Below the pieces are notes generated by a model, which worked only from the letters and a program-made list of their open reading frames with translations, was not told the DNA's origin and made no database searches. This document shows, in pieces, positions 9,751-19,182 of a DNA stretch of 64,000 bases; positions within the stretch are counted from its first letter, which is position 1; every line of letters starts with the position of its first letter. A program made the translations under genes and the position numbers. Source of the stretch: Akkermansia muciniphila (GTDB taxonomy: Bacteria; Pseudomonadota; Gammaproteobacteria; Burkholderiales; Burkholderiaceae_C); the NCBI GenBank assembly GCA_943331105.2, contig CALQKH020000002.1, positions 124,001 to 188,000 of the forward strand, read 5' to 3'.

Positions 9751-11823
9751 CTAGACCCACCAATGCGCCAAGCCACTGGCGCGCACGCTGGGGCGCTCAA
9801 TGGCTGCTTCGAGCAAACCGGCCTCGGCCTCGACCAAAGTGAACTGCTGGCGGGCCCGAGTGATGCCGGTGTAGACCAACTCTCGACTGAGCACCTCGGC
9901 GCCGCCCGGGGGCAGCACCAACGCGGTGTGCTCAAACTCCGAGCCCTGGCTTTTGTGCACGGTCATGGCAAACGCGGTGTCAACCTGGGCCAAGCGCATG
10001 ACGCTCACCGAGCGCAAGGCTTCACCGTCCAAAAACCAGACCTTGGGCTTGCCTTCGGTGTTCGGCAACACCACGCCCACGTCGCCATTGAAGACGCCCA
10101 GCTGCGCGTCGTTGCGCGTGACCATGACAGGCCGCCCCTCGTACCACTCGCCCTGGATGCGCAGCAAGCCCGCATCGGCCAAGGCTTTTTGTACCGCCAC
10201 ATTCAGCGCTTGCGTGCCCCAGTCGCCTTGGTGCACGGCGCACAAAATGCGAAACCGCTCAAAGGCCTTGAGCACACTGCTGACCCAGCTGGCGTGCGCT
10301 TCAGCCCCCTGCCCTGCCGGTCCGGTTTGCATGAGGTGCAAATAGTTGGCGTAAGAAGGCTTGCCCGCTGCGCCCAGCGCCAAGGCCCACACAGCTTGGG
10401 GGCTGCCCGGCTGGAGAGCCAGCACCGGCGAGGCTGCCGAGTTGTCTGAGCCACCCAAGCAGGCGCGTGCCGCCGCCGCATCGCCCCGGTTCACCGCCAG
10501 CGCCAGCTGGCCAATCGCGCCTTTGAAACGACGGCTTTGGCGCAGCATCACGGTTTGCTGGGCCAGCACGGGGGCCAGATCGGTCACCACAAATTGGGAT
10601 GCCAGCGTCTGACCCGCTACGCGCTGCACAAACTGCGCCGTGGCCGCGCTGTAGCGGCCCGCTGCAGCGTCTTGGCACAAATCGCCCAGCACCGCACCGG
10701 CTTCGACCGAGGCGAGCTGATCCTTGTCGCCCAACAGCACCAAGCGCGCCGTGGATGGCAAGGCCTTCAACAGAGCGTCCATCATTTCCAAATGCACCAT
10801 CGAGGCTTCATCCACGATCAGCACATCCACGTCGAGCGGGTTGGCCGCGTGGTGGCGAAACTGGCGTGTGTCGGGCCGTGCGCCCAGCAGCGAATGCAGC
10901 GTTCGCGCCGGACCCATGCGGGCGATCAGTGCAGCCAAGTCCAGTCCCGAATCCTTAGGCATGGTCAAGCGGGTCAAGGCATCGTCGATCGATTGCTTCA
11001 GGCGCGCCGCCGCCTTGCCGGTGGGCGCGGCCAGCGCCACACGCAGCGGGCTGCCATCGGGGTGCAGCGCCAGCAGCAGCGCCAGAAAACGGGCGGCGGT
11101 GTAGGTCTTGCCGGTGCCAGGCCCACCCGTGATGACCGACAGCCGCGCGCGCAGTGCCACGGCACAAGCCGCTTTCTGCCAGTCGATGGCGGCGGACTCT
11201 TCGGGCTTGGGCGCAAAGAAGCGGTCCAGCCATTCGCGTGCCGCTGCTTCGTGAACGGGCCATGACTCGCTGGCACGCTGCAGCAGGCTCTGGCCCACGC
11301 GCTGCTCATAGCCCGCATAACGGCGCAAATACAAAAGTGGCGCATCGGCAGATCCGCCCAACACCAGCGGCTGGCCATGGTCGGGGGCATCGGCCAAGCG
11401 CACACAGGCGCTGGGTGGTTGAGCCTGTAAAACCTGCCGCCAATCGGCCAGCGTGGCAGGCAGGTGCGCCCACAAAGCCTTCAGGCCCTGCGCACCGTCC
11501 ACCGCAGCCGCAGGCCAGCCCAGCAAGGCCACGGGCGGCTGGCACAAATCGGCCAAGGCCAGGCAGGTGTGGCCACGCCCTTCCATCTGGGCGAGCACGG
11601 CCGCAGCCACCAGCAAAGGCGCAGATACACCGGTATCTAGGCGAATCACTTGCGCGGCGAAAGCGCTGTCGATGTGGCGCAGCAGGCCTTGGCCGGTCCA
11701 CAGGTTCAACCACTGCAAGGTCTGCGCAGCGGTCAGGCCTTGGGCAGGCAAGTCCTTGAGCCAATCCATTTGCGAGGCGGAGGCGGGCACGGGCGCGGTG
11801 CGTGAGATTTTTTTCAAGTTCAT
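9751..11823 (-). CDS. recD: RecBCD exonuclease V subunit alpha, RecD
   Basis: RecD is the fast 5'-3' helicase of RecBCD, which processes double-strand ends for recombination and degrades linear foreign DNA. The 690-residue protein has an N-terminal RecB-binding region, the Walker A motif GGPGTGKT (about 233-240), the DEAS Walker B and the C-terminal UvrD_C_2 motif TVHKSQGSEF followed by VYTGITRARQQ. The start ATG at 11823 shares its A with the recB stop (TGATG), so the genes are translationally coupled; a GTG one codon upstream is also possible. Last gene of recC-recB-recD. Confidence 0.95.
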   Translation of the reverse strand: MNLKKISRTAPVPASASQMDWLKDLPAQGLTAAQTLQWLNLWTGQGLLRHIDSAFAAQVIRLDTGVSAPLLVAAAVLAQMEGRGHTCLALADLCQPPVALLGWPAAAVDGAQGLKALWAHLPATLADWRQVLQAQPPSACVRLADAPDHGQPLVLGGSADAPLLYLRRYAGYEQRVGQSLLQRASESWPVHEAAAREWLDRFFAPKPEESAAIDWQKAACAVALRARLSVITGGPGTGKTYTAARFLALLLALHPDGSPLRVALAAPTGKAAARLKQSIDDALTRLTMPKDSGLDLAALIARMGPARTLHSLLGARPDTRQFRHHAANPLDVDVLIVDEASMVHLEMMDALLKALPSTARLVLLGDKDQLASVEAGAVLGDLCQDAAAGRYSAATAQFVQRVAGQTLASQFVVTDLAPVLAQQTVMLRQSRRFKGAIGQLALAVNRGDAAAARACLGGSDNSAASPVLALQPGSPQAVWALALGAAGKPSYANYLHLMQTGPAGQGAEAHASWVSSVLKAFERFRILCAVHQGDWGTQALNVAVQKALADAGLLRIQGEWYEGRPVMVTRNDAQLGVFNGDVGVVLPNTEGKPKVWFLDGEALRSVSVMRLAQVDTAFAMTVHKSQGSEFEHTALVLPPGGAEVLSRELVYTGITRARQQFTLVEAEAGLLEAAIERPSVRASGLAHWWV

Positions 11824-14800
11824 CACGCCACCTCGGCATTCAACATGGCGTCCAGACCGTCGAGCAGCGCCAAAGGCGCAGGCAAGGTGCAGCAGCCACC
11901 CGCAGGCCCGTCGATGCCGCGCAAAAACAAGTACACCGCGCCGCCCAACTGCTGCGCCGGGTCGTAGGCATCACCTAGGCGGGCGCGCAACAGTCTGTGC
12001 AACGCCAGCATGTACAGCGCAGCTTGGACATCGTAACGGTGCTGGGCCATGGCCGCATCCAAGGCCTGTGCTGTGTAGGCAGCGTCATCAGGCCCCAAAT
12101 GATTCGATTTGTAGTCGAGCACCCAGTAACGGCCTTGGTGCTCGAACACCAGATCGGCAAAGCCCATCAGCATACCGTGCAGCTGCGCGTCGGGCAGCTG
12201 TGGGCGGCTCACGCCGAGCAACAGGTGCTGCTGGCACAAGGCATCGACTTGGCGTGCATGCAGGCGCTCGGCGGGCAGCCAGAACTCCATCTCGGGCAAC
12301 AGATCACCCAGCGCGTTCAGCGGCGCGTTCGGCCCGCGCAAAGGCTGAGCCACCACACGGCTGAGCCACTGCAGCACGTCGTCGGCTTGGGCCGGGTAAC
12401 CGGCGTTTTCGCAGCGGTATTTCAAGCGCTCGGCCTTGGCTGCATCGATAGCATAGCCATCGGCCGCAAGCCATTCGAGTTGGTCATGTAAAAAATTGCC
12501 CGCCGTAGGGCCTTTGGCAAAACCGTGCCACGGAGCCAAAGCACCAGGGCTGGCCACCCAGGCCGTGGGGGGGGCCGCATCTTCAAGGGGTTCGTCGTCT
12601 GCGGGACGCGGCGGGTTCAGGTGCAGCACCAAAGGCGCCAGGGTTTGCGAAGACAGGTCGCGCGTCAAGCGAGAAAAACTCGCGATGGTCCACGACTTGT
12701 CGATGCGGGCGGTGCAAACCAGCGCTTCTCGCAGTGCGGTGGTCTGCAGGGGCTTGTGCCACAGCGTCAACGGCACCACTTCAGGAGCAAGCTCTAGTTG
12801 CACAAACAAGGCCTTGCCTGCCCCATCGGTTTTCAGCGCTTGCAGCTTCGCCAGCCAATCGGCGGGTTCAAGCGACTGACCGTTTCCGAGCAAATGACCA
12901 GACGCACTGAAGTGGTTGCGGCACTTGTCACTGTTTCCCATTTTGACCGCGCTCCAACCCACCCACAGCGCGTGACGTGCCCGCGTGAGCGCCACGTACC
13001 ACAGGCGCAGGTCTTCACGCAGGCGATCTTGGTCCGCGAGTTTGGAGTCGTCCTTGTCAAAGTCCAGCGTCCAGTGGCGTTCACCCTCGCCCTCACCACC
13101 CGCCAACTGCAGCACGGCGGCTTTGTCGGCCGTGACCACGCGGTGGCTGTGCGCAAAGGGCAAGCACACCACCGGGTACTCCAGGCCCTTGCTGGCGTGG
13201 ATGGTGATGACCTTGACCAGATCCTCGTCGCTTTCGAGCCGCACGGTTTGCTCTTCGCCACCGCTGGCATGGCCCGACTGCGCTTCTTCCATCTGCTGGG
13301 CCAACCAACGGATCAAGGCCTGCTCGCCTTCGATCTGGCCGCTGGCCGTTTGCAACAATTCAGCCAGGTGCAGCACATTGGTCAGACGCCGCTCGCCGTC
13401 GGGCTCACCGCGCCAGCGCCCCGCCAGCTGCAGCACATGCAGCGACTGGCGCAGCATGGCCAGCACGCCCTGGCTTAGCCAGGTCTGGTGCAGCTCGCGC
13501 ATTTGCTCAGCGCGCATGTCCAACAATTCGTCTTGCGTGGCCAAGTCATAAAGCTCGGTCAGCGACAGGCCCACCGTGCGGGTGCCCAATGCAGCGCGCA
13601 GTCGGCGCATGTCTTGTGGCTCGGCCACGCCGCGCAGCCACAGACAAAGGTCTTGCGCCTCGTCGCTGGCGAACACCGAGTCGCGGTCCGACAAATACAC
13701 CGAAGCCACACCGCGCACACGCAGCGCATCGCGCACGGCCGCGGCCTCTTTGCCGGTGCGCACCAGCACAGCGATGTCTTTGGGTTGCAAGGGTTTGTCG
13801 CCGTTTTGTGCATCCGCAAAACGCGCGTGTGAATCGCTCAGCCAGGCCACGATTTGCTCGGCGCACAAGGCCGACAGGTGCGCCTGCGCATCGCGTTGGC
13901 TGCGCAAAATGGCGTCGTGCACCACGGTCATGGCTTGCACATCGCCCGCGCTCGTCCTGAACACTTCAGGGCGGCCCTTCGCCCCCACCGGCTGGAACGG
14001 CAACGGATCTTGATCGTCTAGCTTGTAGCCAAAGGCGTCTGGCGAAATGTCGAACCAGCGGTTGATCACAGCCACCACCGCTTGGGTGGAGCGGAAGTTG
14101 GTGCCCAGCACATGGTGGCGGCCAGCGGTGGCGCGGCGTGCAGCCAAGTAGCTGTGGATATCCGCACCCCGAAAACCATAGATGGATTGCTTGGGGTCAC
14201 CAATGAGCAGCAGCGCGATGTCTGGCAGGTTGTCGGCCGTGCGGTAGATCCGGTCAAAGATGCGGAACTGCAGCGGCGAGGTGTCTTGGAACTCGTCGAT
14301 CATCGCCACCGGAAACTGCTCGCGCAGACGCTGCGCCAAGCGCTCGCCCGATTCGGGGTCGGCCAGTGCAACATCCAGCCGCTGCAGCATGTCGGCAAAG
14401 CCAAACAGCCCGCCGCGCCGCTTGAGCTCGGCCATGCGCTGCAGCACATGGGTGCGGGCGTGCAGGCGGGCGACTTGGGCCGGTTCGGGTAAGGCATTCA
14501 AAGCCGCTTGCAGGTCGGCGTACGCCTGGCTTTCGGGGGGCAAATCCACAGGCGCTTCACCAGGCTTACGGCATTCGACCAGGCCTTGAGGCGTGAAGCG
14601 TGCCCAGCCGGCTTTCATGGTTTTTTCCAAGCGCTTACCGTCTTCTGGCCCTTGCGCCCACTCTTTGAGCACGGCCAGCCACTCGGCACATTTTTTGTAT
14701 GTCAGTTTCCGGCCATCCCAGCTCGACTTGTGATGCGCCAACTGCGCCTCGATCCAACCCAATAAATTGTCGGACTTCTCGTTCCAGCCCTGTTTGAGCG

Positions 14801-15500
14801 CCTGCAGTTGTGCGTCGCGCTCGGCCATGGCCGCGCCGAACACCTGCGCCAGCGTGCCGGGTGCGGCATCGTCCAGCGGCACGGCCATCAGGGCGCGCAT
14901 GTCTTGTTCAAGCGCGGGCACATCGCGCCACACGTTCAGCACCTTTGTCACCAGGGCTGTACCCATGGGGTATAGCTGCTGACGCCAGTAGTCCTGCACC
15001 GCTTCGAGGCGCAGCGCGGCTTCGTCGCCGACCAGGTTTTCTTCAAACAGACTGCCGCTGTCGAACGCGTGTTCGCGCAGCATGCGCTGGCACCAGGCGT
15101 CGATGGTGTACACGGCCGCATCGTCCATGGCCTGCGCCGCCAGCGCCAAGCGGTGGGCGGCTTGTTCGCGGGGCTCTCCTTCGGGGTATTCGTCCTTCAG
15201 TTGTCGCAAGAAGTCATCGTCGGTTTCGGCCATGCCCCGGAACACCTGCGCGGCCTCGGTCAATCGGGCGCGGATGCGGTCAGACAGCTCACGGGTAGCG
15301 GCGCGGGTGAAGGTCATCACCAGCACGTCTTGCGGCAGCATGGGGCGAACAGGTGCGGTACCGTCTTGGCCGTGGCCCAGCACCAAGCGCACATACAAAG
15401 CGGCAATGGTCCAGGTCTTGCCTGTGCCAGCGCTGGCCTCGATCAGGTGGCTGCCGCGCAGGGGAAAGGTGTGCGCATTGAGGGCGTGGGGGATGCTCAT
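11823..15500 (-). CDS. recB: RecBCD exonuclease V subunit beta, RecB
   Basis: RecB is the 3'-5' helicase and only nuclease of RecBCD. The 1225-residue protein has Walker A in EASAGTGKTWT (about 21-31), MIDEFQDTSP as Walker B, YGFRGADI, the helicase motifs SKGLEYPVV and VALTRARHALW, and a C-terminal nuclease domain with the catalytic LDYKSNHLG motif (near 1130). All helicase and nuclease residues I looked for are present. The start ATG (15500) overlaps the recC stop as ATGA. The longest frame extends 35 codons upstream into recC coding sequence, but that peptide is the recC region in another frame, so I rejected it. Confidence 0.95.
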   Translation of the reverse strand: MSIPHALNAHTFPLRGSHLIEASAGTGKTWTIAALYVRLVLGHGQDGTAPVRPMLPQDVLVMTFTRAATRELSDRIRARLTEAAQVFRGMAETDDDFLRQLKDEYPEGEPREQAAHRLALAAQAMDDAAVYTIDAWCQRMLREHAFDSGSLFEENLVGDEAALRLEAVQDYWRQQLYPMGTALVTKVLNVWRDVPALEQDMRALMAVPLDDAAPGTLAQVFGAAMAERDAQLQALKQGWNEKSDNLLGWIEAQLAHHKSSWDGRKLTYKKCAEWLAVLKEWAQGPEDGKRLEKTMKAGWARFTPQGLVECRKPGEAPVDLPPESQAYADLQAALNALPEPAQVARLHARTHVLQRMAELKRRGGLFGFADMLQRLDVALADPESGERLAQRLREQFPVAMIDEFQDTSPLQFRIFDRIYRTADNLPDIALLLIGDPKQSIYGFRGADIHSYLAARRATAGRHHVLGTNFRSTQAVVAVINRWFDISPDAFGYKLDDQDPLPFQPVGAKGRPEVFRTSAGDVQAMTVVHDAILRSQRDAQAHLSALCAEQIVAWLSDSHARFADAQNGDKPLQPKDIAVLVRTGKEAAAVRDALRVRGVASVYLSDRDSVFASDEAQDLCLWLRGVAEPQDMRRLRAALGTRTVGLSLTELYDLATQDELLDMRAEQMRELHQTWLSQGVLAMLRQSLHVLQLAGRWRGEPDGERRLTNVLHLAELLQTASGQIEGEQALIRWLAQQMEEAQSGHASGGEEQTVRLESDEDLVKVITIHASKGLEYPVVCLPFAHSHRVVTADKAAVLQLAGGEGEGERHWTLDFDKDDSKLADQDRLREDLRLWYVALTRARHALWVGWSAVKMGNSDKCRNHFSASGHLLGNGQSLEPADWLAKLQALKTDGAGKALFVQLELAPEVVPLTLWHKPLQTTALREALVCTARIDKSWTIASFSRLTRDLSSQTLAPLVLHLNPPRPADDEPLEDAAPPTAWVASPGALAPWHGFAKGPTAGNFLHDQLEWLAADGYAIDAAKAERLKYRCENAGYPAQADDVLQWLSRVVAQPLRGPNAPLNALGDLLPEMEFWLPAERLHARQVDALCQQHLLLGVSRPQLPDAQLHGMLMGFADLVFEHQGRYWVLDYKSNHLGPDDAAYTAQALDAAMAQHRYDVQAALYMLALHRLLRARLGDAYDPAQQLGGAVYLFLRGIDGPAGGCCTLPAPLALLDGLDAMLNAEVA

Positions 15501-18500
15501 GCCAGCTCTCCCTCTTCGCTGTCTTGGGCCACATCCGGCAAGGCCTCGATCTCGGCTTGCTCGGCCCAGGCCTTCAAGGGGGCGTAAACGGTTTGGACAA
15601 GGCAATCGAACTTGCCCGTGGCCAGCAAGTCCTCTACCGTGGCATAGGTACGGGCCAGTGCCGGGTCTTTGTCTTTTTCGGCGCGTTTGAAGTCAATGCC
15701 CTCATAGGCATCGGCCAGCGCGTTGATGTTGTCTTTGTCTTTGAGCCACTGCAGCGCCACACCGGGCGGCAACGGCAGCGGCCAACGCATGCCTTCGGCC
15801 CAAACGGCCAACAGCTCGGTCAATTGGACACGGGCGGCTTGTGGATCTTGCTCGGCCATGCGCAGCACGGCGTTGCGGCCCACCACCACGCACTTCAAGG
15901 GCTGGTCCATGGCGGCTGCGGCCAGCGACAGCAGCCAAATGTCGATCAGCTTTTCTGGGTGGGCCTGTGGCTTTTGGGTCTTGAAGCTGGCCAGATCGCT
16001 GGCGCGCAGGTGCAAGGACATCTGACTTCCCTCGCCTTCCAGCACATCACCCAGCGCGTCTTGCAAGGCCACTTGGGAATGCGACATGTCCACCAAAAGG
16101 CGTTCGGCTGCATGGGGGTAAGCCTGCCGCTCGTGCAGCGCTGCGCCCAGCATGGCCTGCAGGCGGTCTCTCAGATTTTCTGCGGCGAGTGCCCCCACGC
16201 CCGCCAGTGGCAAGGCGCCGGCCTGGCGCAGGCGCTTAACCACCTTCTGCACATGCGCGGGCAAGGTGTCAGCGTTCAGCGCGATGGGGACGTGCGCCAG
16301 TTCGTGGTCGATCAGTTGATACAGATCCAGGCCCGCCAGTCCAAACAGTTCCTCGTCGTGCAGTTCGCTGCGCTCGCCCTCCAGATGCACTTGCAGGCGT
16401 TCGCGGAAAAACGCGCCCACAGGTTTGCGCAAAAAGCGGGCGAGTTGGGCGAGCGTGATGACCGGCACGCCATTAGCGGATTCCAGCGGCGGCAACAAGG
16501 CAACCGATGACCCGGTAGAAGCGGTCTCCGACCGCGATGATGTTTCGGGTGATCCATCGCGGTCGGAGACCGCTCCTGCAAATGACGAGCTCTGCGCCGC
16601 ACGCCACTCCTTGGCATAGGTTTGCAAACCACTGCCCTCTTCAAAATAAGTGCGGCTGAAGGCTTGCAGTGGGTGCACCGTGGACAGGCGCTTGGCCGTG
16701 TCCTTGCCCCACAGCAGATCAATCTCGTCGCGCAGCTGCGAAACCAGCACCGAGGGCGGTTGCTCGCTGTTGTCGCGCACGCTGCGACCGCTCCAGCTGA
16801 TGTAGAGCACTTGCCGCGCCGACAGCAAGGCTTCCAGCATGAGCTGTCGGTCGTCGTCGCGGCGAGAGCGGTCGCCGGGGCGGCTCATGCCGGGCAGGCC
16901 CATCAGGTCGAAGTCCGCTCGCGGGCTGCGGCGCGGGTAATCGCCGTCGTTCATGCCCAGCAAGCACACGGCCTTGAACGGGATGGCCCGCATGGGCATG
17001 AGCGTGCAAAAGGTCACGCCCCCAGCCCGAAAGCGTTGCTCAAGCCGGGGCGTCTTGAGCGCTTCTAGCCAGGCCGAGCGGGCTACAGCCAGCGGCACCG
17101 CATCGACAAAACCAGCCTCGGCGCAGGCGCGCACCCAGTCGGTCAACGCTTGGTCGAGCGCCGCGATCGCGTTGCGGTCGTTGTCGTCTCGCGGCTTGAA
17201 CATCGCGGCCAGCATGGACCGGCCGCGCTCGGCCCATTGCGCAGGCGTGGCGTCTTGCGTGGCGGTTTGCCACCAGTCGATCAAGACCTGCAACAGGTGC
17301 GCCAAAGACCCGGCCAGCTCGGCATCAAGCCCACCCACTTCAGGGTAAGGCGTGGCCCCTGGCGCATCGGTATCCACCGGGTCGGCCCCACAGGCATAGC
17401 CCATGAGCATGCGCTGAACGCCAAACAGCGCCGAGTTGTCCTCTCCGCACACCCCCAGACCCAGGCCTGCGCGGTGCGGAGCCGACAGGCCCCAGCGGAT
17501 GCCCGAGCCCGCCATCCAACGGGTGAGCGTGGGCAAGCCCTCTTCACTCAGGCCAAAGCGGGCGGCGAGCGCAGGCACTTCGAGCAGCTCGACCAGCTCG
17601 CTCATGCGGCTGCGCTGTTGCGGCAAGGCCAGCAGCCACGCCACCGCATGAATCAGTGGGCTGATGGCCTGTGCGCCCAAGTCGGCAATGTCGAACGGGA
17701 TGAACCGCGCATCTGAGCGCTTGTACTGACCAAAAACGGCTCGAATCGCCGGGGCCATGACTTCAATGTCGGGCACCATGACCACCACGTCGCGGGGTGA
17801 CACAGACTGATTGCCGGGCGGGGAGTGGAACCACTGCAGCAGTTGGTCGTGCAGCACCTCCAGCTCGCGCACAGGGCTGTGGGCGATTTTGAAAACAAGC
17901 GATTCATCACCTTGGGCCCATGGCTCCACAGGGGCACCACCACTGGACGGCTCTAGGTCGCGAATGCGCCGCTGCAACTGGGACAACATTCGCGCGCCGT
18001 CTTCGTCGGGCATGTCCTCAAAAAAGTCCAGGCGCGGCCACTGCGTGAGTTGCTTGGCCGCTTGCAGGTCGTCAAAGGCGTCCAGCTGCCGGATAAAGTC
18101 GCGCCCCTGCCGCCCCCAGGCGGCCAGCAGCGTGGGCGCGTGCAGGTGCATCTGTGCCAGCGGCAAATCGGCCAAAGTCTTGTCCCGGTAAGTGTGGCGG
18201 CGGCGCTCGGCCTGCAGCCATTCACGCCCGTCAATGATGTCTCCCCAGTGGTACTGGCACGGATTGGGCACGGCCAGCATCACCTGGCTGTGCGCGGCCA
18301 GCGCCGCCAGCATCTCGAGCAATTGCCCCGGCATGTGGCTCATGCCAAACACCGACACGCGCCGCGCCACGACGCTGGCCAGGGGCTGGCCCGACTGCAA
18401 ATGCGCCAGTGCCCGCGCGTGCAGCGCCGGTCGGGTGGCTTGGCGCTGGCTGTCATCCAAGGTGGCCAACACACGCCGCCACAGCTCGGCTTGCCAGAGT

Positions 18501-19030
18501 TGGTCTTCTGCCAATGCATCCGAACCTGCAGCCTTGCGCAACACATCCCACCCGGCGGCCCAGTCTTGCAGCCAATCGGGGCGGTAAATCTGGTACTGGT
18601 CAAACAAATCCGCCAAGCGAGAGGCCAGTTGCAACAAGCGGTCGGGCTCATCGCCTCTCAAAAAACCCGCCACAGGCTTGAACACCGGGTCGTTCACGCA
18701 AGTGGGCAGCAAAGCCATCAGCCGCCAGGTCATGGGCAGTTTGTCCAGCGGCGATTCGGGCGGCACATTTTGCGTGCCCAACACCTGCCGGTAGGTGCGC
18801 CACAAAAAGCGCGAAGGCAGCTCCACCCGGGTGGCCGCGCACACACCACCCTGCCGGGCCAATTCGATCTTGATCCACTCGGCCATGCCGTTGCTTTGCA
18901 CCAGCACGACTTCGCTCTCCAACGGATCCAGCGGGTGCGCACGCAACCAGCCCGTCAGGGTGTCGGCCAAAACCTCAGAGCGGTGGCTGTGCAGGGCAAT
19001 GAAACCGGGAGAGATGTGGGAAACAGGCAT
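15497..19030 (-). CDS. recC: RecBCD exonuclease V subunit gamma, RecC
   Basis: RecC is the scaffold of RecBCD: it splits the strands and scans for Chi. The 1177-residue product begins FIALHSHRSEVLADTL after a short leader, matching betaproteobacterial RecC, and contains QSNGMAEWI, FGMSHMPGQLLEML and VCLLGMNDGDYPRR. Oddly, residues about 815-840 (AGAVSDRDGSPETSSRSET and flanks) are encoded by an inverted pair of REP-like palindromes read in frame. The insert lies in a low-complexity linker just before the C-terminal nuclease-like domain (from about VPVITLAQLARFLRKP). Start ATG 19030 has no visible ribosome-binding site. First gene of recC-recB-recD; its promoter must lie in the 294-bp gap shared with the divergent acyl-CoA ligase. 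Confidence 0.93.
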   Translation of the reverse strand: MPVSHISPGFIALHSHRSEVLADTLTGWLRAHPLDPLESEVVLVQSNGMAEWIKIELARQGGVCAATRVELPSRFLWRTYRQVLGTQNVPPESPLDKLPMTWRLMALLPTCVNDPVFKPVAGFLRGDEPDRLLQLASRLADLFDQYQIYRPDWLQDWAAGWDVLRKAAGSDALAEDQLWQAELWRRVLATLDDSQRQATRPALHARALAHLQSGQPLASVVARRVSVFGMSHMPGQLLEMLAALAAHSQVMLAVPNPCQYHWGDIIDGREWLQAERRRHTYRDKTLADLPLAQMHLHAPTLLAAWGRQGRDFIRQLDAFDDLQAAKQLTQWPRLDFFEDMPDEDGARMLSQLQRRIRDLEPSSGGAPVEPWAQGDESLVFKIAHSPVRELEVLHDQLLQWFHSPPGNQSVSPRDVVVMVPDIEVMAPAIRAVFGQYKRSDARFIPFDIADLGAQAISPLIHAVAWLLALPQQRSRMSELVELLEVPALAARFGLSEEGLPTLTRWMAGSGIRWGLSAPHRAGLGLGVCGEDNSALFGVQRMLMGYACGADPVDTDAPGATPYPEVGGLDAELAGSLAHLLQVLIDWWQTATQDATPAQWAERGRSMLAAMFKPRDDNDRNAIAALDQALTDWVRACAEAGFVDAVPLAVARSAWLEALKTPRLEQRFRAGGVTFCTLMPMRAIPFKAVCLLGMNDGDYPRRSPRADFDLMGLPGMSRPGDRSRRDDDRQLMLEALLSARQVLYISWSGRSVRDNSEQPPSVLVSQLRDEIDLLWGKDTAKRLSTVHPLQAFSRTYFEEGSGLQTYAKEWRAAQSSSFAGAVSDRDGSPETSSRSETASTGSSVALLPPLESANGVPVITLAQLARFLRKPVGAFFRERLQVHLEGERSELHDEELFGLAGLDLYQLIDHELAHVPIALNADTLPAHVQKVVKRLRQAGALPLAGVGALAAENLRDRLQAMLGAALHERQAYPHAAERLLVDMSHSQVALQDALGDVLEGEGSQMSLHLRASDLASFKTQKPQAHPEKLIDIWLLSLAAAAMDQPLKCVVVGRNAVLRMAEQDPQAARVQLTELLAVWAEGMRWPLPLPPGVALQWLKDKDNINALADAYEGIDFKRAEKDKDPALARTYATVEDLLATGKFDCLVQTVYAPLKAWAEQAEIEALPDVAQDSEEGELA
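16520..16574. repeat. REP doublet (REPIN/BIME-like) inside recC
   Basis: Two perfect 20-bp inverted arms (16520-16539 and 16555-16574) flank a 15-bp spacer. Each arm contains its own small palindrome, GCGGTC-TCC-GACCGC, the structure of a REP unit; together the head-to-head pair is what is called a REPIN. Similarity continues outwards with two mismatches in five bases (GTAGA versus the complement GCAGG). The element is in frame and stop-free within recC. Such elements are mobilised by RAYT-type tyrosine transposases and are normally extragenic; no RAYT gene lies in this window. I saw no second copy of the GCGGTCTCCGACCGC core here. Confidence 0.85.
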
Positions 19031-19182
19031 GCGGCGAAGGAGGCTGACGAGGAAATAAAGGAACAAGAATAGCTGCAATCATGCCCTCCGCCAGGCTCAT
19101 GGCAAGAGCCCGCCATTGCCTATTTTTTAAGCACTCGCCGTCACGCCAATCAGGATGCGGCTTGGCGCAGTTGTTCAAGGAC

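Follow-up and report, generated by a model that had tools for sequence, protein, structure and literature searches.

A GTAG-type REP doublet in the recC reading frame, at a linker that holds several REP families in the Limnohabitans lineage

The recC gene of genome G000 contains an inverted repeat that is a GTAG-type REP doublet (REPIN), real and ordinary in kind. It is probably a tolerated passenger and here a relict: a GTAG-class REPIN kept in a flexible RecC loop that is a recurrent REP site. The part most worth following is the turnover of multiple REP families in this loop, which is echoed in RecD and MutL. The window, i.e. the whole stretch of DNA analysed, comprises 64,000 nucleotides (G000:C2:124001-188000) of a 3.41-Mb genome of 29 contigs that is 99.93% complete. 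Judged by RecC, its relatives are Limnohabitans species and members of the Comamonadaceae or Burkholderiales. On the minus strand the gene order is recC, then recB and recD, and the features concerned are these:

15497-19078, minus strand: recC, exodeoxyribonuclease V gamma subunit, 1193 aa (ORF; matches E. coli RecC, PDB 1w36_C, E 5.2e-153)
16496-16591, minus strand: variable recC linker, residues 830-861 (SSSFAGAVSDRDGSPETSSRSETASTGSSVAL), with other REP families in relatives (alignments; pLDDT below 50 at 833-856)
16515-16579, no strand assigned: whole REPIN, two inverted REPs with outward GTAG/GCAG tags (sequence; tag rule from PMC3733652)
16517-16539, plus strand: REP arm 1, perfect part 16520-16539 (inverted-repeat search)
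16555-16577, minus strand: REP arm 2, perfect part 16555-16574 (inverted-repeat search)
16515-16518, plus strand: intact GTAG tag of arm 1 (read from the sequence)
11823-15605, minus strand: recB, its start overlapping the end of recC (ORF; named from sequence and position)
9751-11826, minus strand: recD; its loop NRGDAAAAR..LALQPG is without a REP here and carries REPs in relatives (recD loci compared)

Structure of the doublet and its place in RecC

The perfect parts of the two arms form a 20-bp inverted repeat around a 15-nt loop, and the full arms are 96% complementary across 23 nt. Among the 14 inverted repeats of the 64-kb window (at least 16 nt, within 150 nt) this one ranks first. Each arm is itself a GCGGTC-TCC-GACCGC hairpin. 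The 17-mer GCGGTCTCCGACCGCGA has two exact occurrences in the window against 0.24 expected (at most three mismatches), and two of 100 shuffles gave at least two matches.

Arm 1 follows the format GTAG, two spacer bases, GCGGTC-TCC-GACCGC and a GAT tail, with an intact tag; arm 2 has GCAG as its tag (16576-16579, minus strand). The two units are inverted with their tags outside, producing one larger hairpin, as expected of a REPIN doublet. The parts of Di Nocera et al. 2013 (PMC3733652) covered here describe the GTAG-1/2 format as a tag, two extra bases, a stem, a short loop and a 3-nt tail, in doublets with the tags outside; REPINs were defined by Bertels and Rainey 2011 (PMC3116915, likewise covered in part). 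The recC doublet resembles these elements in its GTAG tag, two extra bases, 6-bp stem, 3-nt loop and 3-nt tail, in its inverted arrangement, in that the copies in relatives are mostly non-coding, and in that a Y1 gene lies between the same REPs in three relatives. It differs in being in frame inside a gene, where GTAG REPs and REPINs are mostly extragenic, and in being the sole copy found in its genome.

The doublet is translated in the recC frame as residues 834-854 (AGAVSDRDGSPETSSRSETAS). In the alignment to E. coli RecC (1w36_C), the linker that holds it falls at approximately residues 807-826, before the C-terminal part. In an AlphaFold model of RecC built on a 45-row alignment (mean pLDDT 80.4), pLDDT falls below 50 at residues 833-856; low pLDDT is no more than a proxy for disorder, and the REP-bearing stretch is accordingly modelled as a low-confidence, presumably flexible loop. 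A sequence-only reading of the window had described a REPIN that is read through in frame in a linker preceding the C-terminal domain of RecC. That description is right, and the linker proves to be variable.

The REP family in the host genome and its relatives

When genome G000 was searched with GCGGTCTCCGACCGCGA at up to two mismatches, the two recC arms alone matched, and a reversed control pattern gave three matches. A looser pattern for the family, here designated family A, found two further places, both unrelated-looking. The many dispersed copies typical of REPs are thus missing from G000 and present in relatives: exact family-A copies occur in 10 of 90 genomes of the genus Limnohabitans, G000 included, and the nine others hold 39 (G027), 10 (G028), 8 (G122), 7 (G022), or one or two each. 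These dispersed exact copies, as many as 39 in one relative, place the recC element in a REP family and rule out a chance palindrome. The sequence-only reading would have abandoned the element had the genome held no other copy; this is literally what was found, and family membership nevertheless stands on the copies in relatives.

In three relatives, G022, G028 and G122, family-A REPs stand on either side of a Y1 transposase gene. The genes of G022 and G028 match NCBIfam NF047646 at 141.1 and 135.6 bits (cut-off 80) and are REP-associated tyrosine transposases (RAYTs). No cognate RAYT, i.e. one flanked by family-A REPs, was found in G000. Its one Y1 gene above the Pfam cut-off (L056, G000:C8, gene 1171-1866) scores 78.9 against NF047646, and its terminal repeats are AATTGGGGTCAGATCCCAATT-like and other than family A; such ends are present at 15 of 30 Y1 loci, in 14 of the 15 relatives searched. 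Since neither another family-A copy nor a cognate RAYT was found in G000, the recC copy is read as a relict. Its family is repetitive in relatives, but we do not count the copy in G000 as part of an active population. A single in-gene REP copy can persist where no other copy or matching RAYT is found. For comparison, the parts of PMC8049555 covered here report that E. coli genomes with a RAYT hold more REPINs than those without. A plasmid search with 301 nt returned no match.

For families A, C, D and E, Y1 genes were seen with REPs of the corresponding family on their flanks. Four loci each have a Y1 transposase gene flanked by a single family: D at L368 and L373, E at L370 and C at L378. Family B, from other recC genes, may be a CGTC-tagged REP, a type that has no dedicated RAYT: CGTC is present in linkers such as those of L019 (GCGTCATCGCCAGG) and L164 (CCGTCATTCCCGCG), and no family-B match (up to three mismatches) was found in any of 30 Y1 loci from 15 genomes.

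Turnover of REPs in the RecC linker and REPs in other genes

RecC-bearing stretches numbered 149, of which 140 covered the linker and 114 were unique. A RecC tree was built with the linker columns left out from 50 rows (above 53% identity, minus six rows, two of which were returned as outgroup), and 45 of these make up the Limnohabitans RecC lineage. A REP is present in the linker of 28 of the 45, drawn from five families. By pattern, ten linkers carry family A, eleven B, three C, three D and one E, and 17 carry none; L026 and L069 are B and A by eye and "none" by pattern, and the count of changes is 19 either way. These 19 changes among six linker states on the RecC tree become 17 without the outgroup and three decayed rows. 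Support is weak for twelve of the tree's 47 inner branches, and the count may be inflated by recombination between recC alleles.

The change in linker content is local. L023 (family E) and L038 (B) are 94.9% identical outside the linker and 39% inside; the corresponding figures are 90.6% and 33% for L031 (B) and L010 (A), and 88.8% and 51% for L018 (D) and L034 (C). Most flanking windows of such close pairs stay at about 90% identity, against 33-51% in the linker. The first 50 alignment columns downstream fall to 70-75% in three pairs, so the edges are fuzzy. Large recombination tracts as the sole cause of the swaps were rejected, as the close pairs retain most of their flank identity. Taken together, the sequence comparisons mark the RecC loop as unusually prone to hold REP inserts.

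Outside the lineage, palindromic repeats were found in two RecC rows. In L164 (G187, another genus) the same linker holds a perfect doublet of CGTC-type REPs, read in frame, on the minus strand at about 1230-1310, and in L143 (another genus) it holds a GC-rich palindromic repeat. The remaining RecC rows of other genera showed no repeats by eye. Within the lineage, the family-B linker of L031 is lengthened by a short tandem repeat, GCRDGYDEGFRDGYDEGCRDGYGEG.

In RecD, one loop carries REPs of three families across 30 loci: A in six (L235-L238, L241, L255), C in five (L247, L250, L253, L257, L260) and D in two (L252, L259); at one locus, L243, the loop anchors did not fit. L260 (G123:C31) apparently has two recD genes, of which only one carries a family-C REP in the loop. 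The interdomain linker of MutL was compared at 33 loci, 30 from the search and three picked for carrying REPs, and holds family A in eight (L205, L206, L211, L214, L216, L221, L116, L336) and C in two (L220, L439); some of the mutL REPs are decayed. L118 is also listed among the mutL loci with in-frame linker REPs (A in some genomes, C in others). A family-E match at the mutL locus L220 lies outside the linker and was dropped.

Copies in coding-like frames were surveyed for three families. Of 98 distinct family-A sites, 79 have no coding-like frame and 19 have one; four of the latter (L268, L280, L313, L334) were judged chance matches to apparently conserved motifs, leaving 15: two in recC, three in recD, six in mutL and four in rfbB-like genes. 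Family B, surveyed over the loci returned by the search (a subset of all matches), gave 11 coding-like sites in 30, with five in recC and two each in uvrA, purL and selO; one site, L350, was fetched because a recC location was expected. The five family-C sites among 93, from a survey that hardly sampled the C-rich genomes G024 (152 matches) and G105 (120), fall one each in mutL and in genes for an aconitase-like protein, a DegT aminotransferase, a YgiQ-type radical SAM protein and an ABC permease. The coding filter misses some sites: L340 (recD) and L282 (recC) were not flagged despite their REPs. Matches in the N-terminal part of UreF-like proteins (L102, L111) were set aside, the start codon being unsure. 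Confinement of REPs to repair genes is ruled out by the seven other genes that carry them.

Two further observations concern individual genes. A UvrA-like ORF at L294 (G115:C10) has two separate in-frame family-B REPs, one of them followed by a tandem ARDDxxGxARDD expansion. At L272, L320, L328 and L339, in-frame family-A REPs occupy a loop of a sugar-nucleotide dehydratase (rfbB-like).

Origin and retention of the recC insert

The doublet loop GATGGATCACCCGAAACATC (up to three mismatches) was found only in the recC genes of G000 and Limnohabitans sp. Bal53 among all loci compared. For this one pair and its 32 linker codons, pN and pS are 0.118 and 0.357 in the linker and, elsewhere in recC, 0.103 and 0.462, and pN/pS is 0.33 against 0.22, which is not neutral-looking. 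In nine A-bearing rows with the other loop type, linker pN/pS is 0.70 against 0.15 elsewhere and pS is 0.351 against 0.309; protein constraint in the loop of these related rows is weak. The two family-A loop types agree at 7 of 17 inner positions, and 16% of shuffles agree as well. Since this is no better than chance, they may be separate insertions, and the data do not demonstrate a single event ancestral to every A-bearing recC gene. The linker of L061, a row of the same clade, is 15 residues long and REP-free.

We propose that a GTAG-class REPIN, presumably carried by a RAYT, inserted into an ancestral recC, at the latest before the recC genes of G000 and Bal53 parted or were exchanged. It would have been retained having landed in a flexible loop, in a stop-free frame, where many in-frame peptides are tolerated, and the insert probably has little effect on RecBCD. 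Other family-A copies would formerly have been present in G000 and then lost. In the Limnohabitans lineage, REPs of five families have been gained, lost or exchanged at this loop repeatedly, and in other genera it holds two more palindromic repeats.

The sequence-only reading had instead suggested a recent, RAYT-driven insertion in the window's strain. Both arms are indeed perfect and equal to the canonical family sequence, and the nearest RecC rows have a different loop; the intact arms could also reflect refreshment, or selection acting on the hairpin. However, neither another family-A copy nor a family-A-flanked RAYT was found in G000, and the Bal53 recC has a doublet with the same loop and gene-like divergence, so that a recent origin is scarcely credible and the insertion appears, on present evidence, not to be recent. 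A better, though still unlikely, candidate is that the linker was acquired by recombination with the recC allele of a REP-rich relative such as Bal53 (39 exact copies). The restriction of the GATGGATCACCCGAAACATC loop to these two genes points that way, as does the other family-A loop type in the near rows L007 and L051. Against it, identity to the Bal53 recC shows no flank peak (81-90% upstream of the linker, 63-85% downstream) and lies below that to nearer rows, with the linker itself at 82%. Any tract that was exchanged may have been old or very short. A role for the hairpin in recC mRNA, either as a brake on translation between two domains or through transcript stability upstream of recB, would be served by its strength: the recC-strand RNA of the doublet folds at -49.7 kcal/mol (z -6.9), a stability reached by none of 200 shuffles. 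The hairpin also precedes the C-terminal domain, and in several rows the REP linkers of other families are likewise well folded. Fold z-scores of the 11 A-bearing linkers nevertheless run from -7.2 to 0.0, and seven are weaker than -3 although the peptide persists, while 18 chosen linkers without a REP span -1.6 to 1.2. A conserved RNA hairpin is ruled out by these scores. The sequence-only reading had raised an effect of the hairpin on the mRNA; a conserved role of this kind is therefore unlikely, and any mRNA role is very improbable.

A wider proposal, after the mutator idea of Di Nocera et al. 2013, is that REPs are kept in RecC, RecD, MutL and UvrA for their effect on repair, which would be dampened or tuned so that recombination or mutation becomes easier. 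With the four chance matches set aside, 19 of 31 coding-like sites (one of them, L350, fetched in expectation of recC) lie in recC, recD, mutL or uvrA. Repair genes make up 4 of the 11 genes concerned, for which the binomial probability is 0.0002-0.009, or 0.003-0.04 without recC, at an assumed repair share of 3-8% and from a partial survey. Three families share the RecD loop and two the MutL linker, and the parts of PMC3733652 covered here report the same bias in other species. The inserts sit, however, in variable, weakly constrained loops; RecC, UvrA and MutL are long proteins or have linkers; and rfbB-like, purL, selO, YgiQ-type radical SAM, aconitase-like, DegT aminotransferase and ABC permease genes carry REPs too. 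We consider repair tuning improbable, and equally doubtful its bolder form, in which the RecC, RecD and MutL loops of Limnohabitans are a selected landing zone for several unrelated REP families whose changes tune the RecBCD nuclease and the mismatch-repair barrier. If that were true, gain and loss of a selfish hairpin would be a switch for recombination with foreign DNA. A tolerated passenger in a recurrent site is still the reading we favour.

Repeats inside repair genes were already known. In the parts of Di Nocera et al. 2013 (PMC3733652) covered here, intragenic REPs are an accepted minority, many of them in replication and repair genes with recBCD and uvrABCD named, and there is speculation on mutators. 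Given that report and the 28 REP-bearing RecC rows above, the intragenic position is less unusual than the sequence-only reading had held. The elements described here resemble those in that report: in-frame doublets are found in uvrA and the recBCD genes, among others, two Xanthomonas species have different REPs near one recB site, and in some species a repair gene is the sole coding sequence that carries a tagged REP. The main text of that report mentions neither recC nor mutL nor Limnohabitans, and a search for literature on Limnohabitans palindromic repeats or intragenic REPs in recC, with subscription papers mostly outside its scope, found nothing on recC beyond this paper. Relative to the covered parts of that report, the present analysis traces one RecC loop across 45 rows of one lineage, with five families, adds RecD and MutL loops with several, and measures constraint. 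The RecC loop thus offers a replicated example of mobile hairpins turning into protein sequence: swaps have been many, and the protein belongs to the main machinery of break repair. The 2013 claim of a REP preference for repair genes becomes testable in one freshwater genus, which provides natural pairs with and without inserts.

Neisseria DNA uptake sequences are over-represented in genome maintenance genes and, as short repeats enriched in repair genes, recall the REPs described here; unlike them, the REPs are hairpin elements associated with a transposase. Rickettsia palindromic elements (RPE) are palindromic repeats translated in frame as protein inserts. The recC doublet is similar to RPE in this respect. 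RPE in protein genes are also mentioned in the covered parts of PMC3733652.
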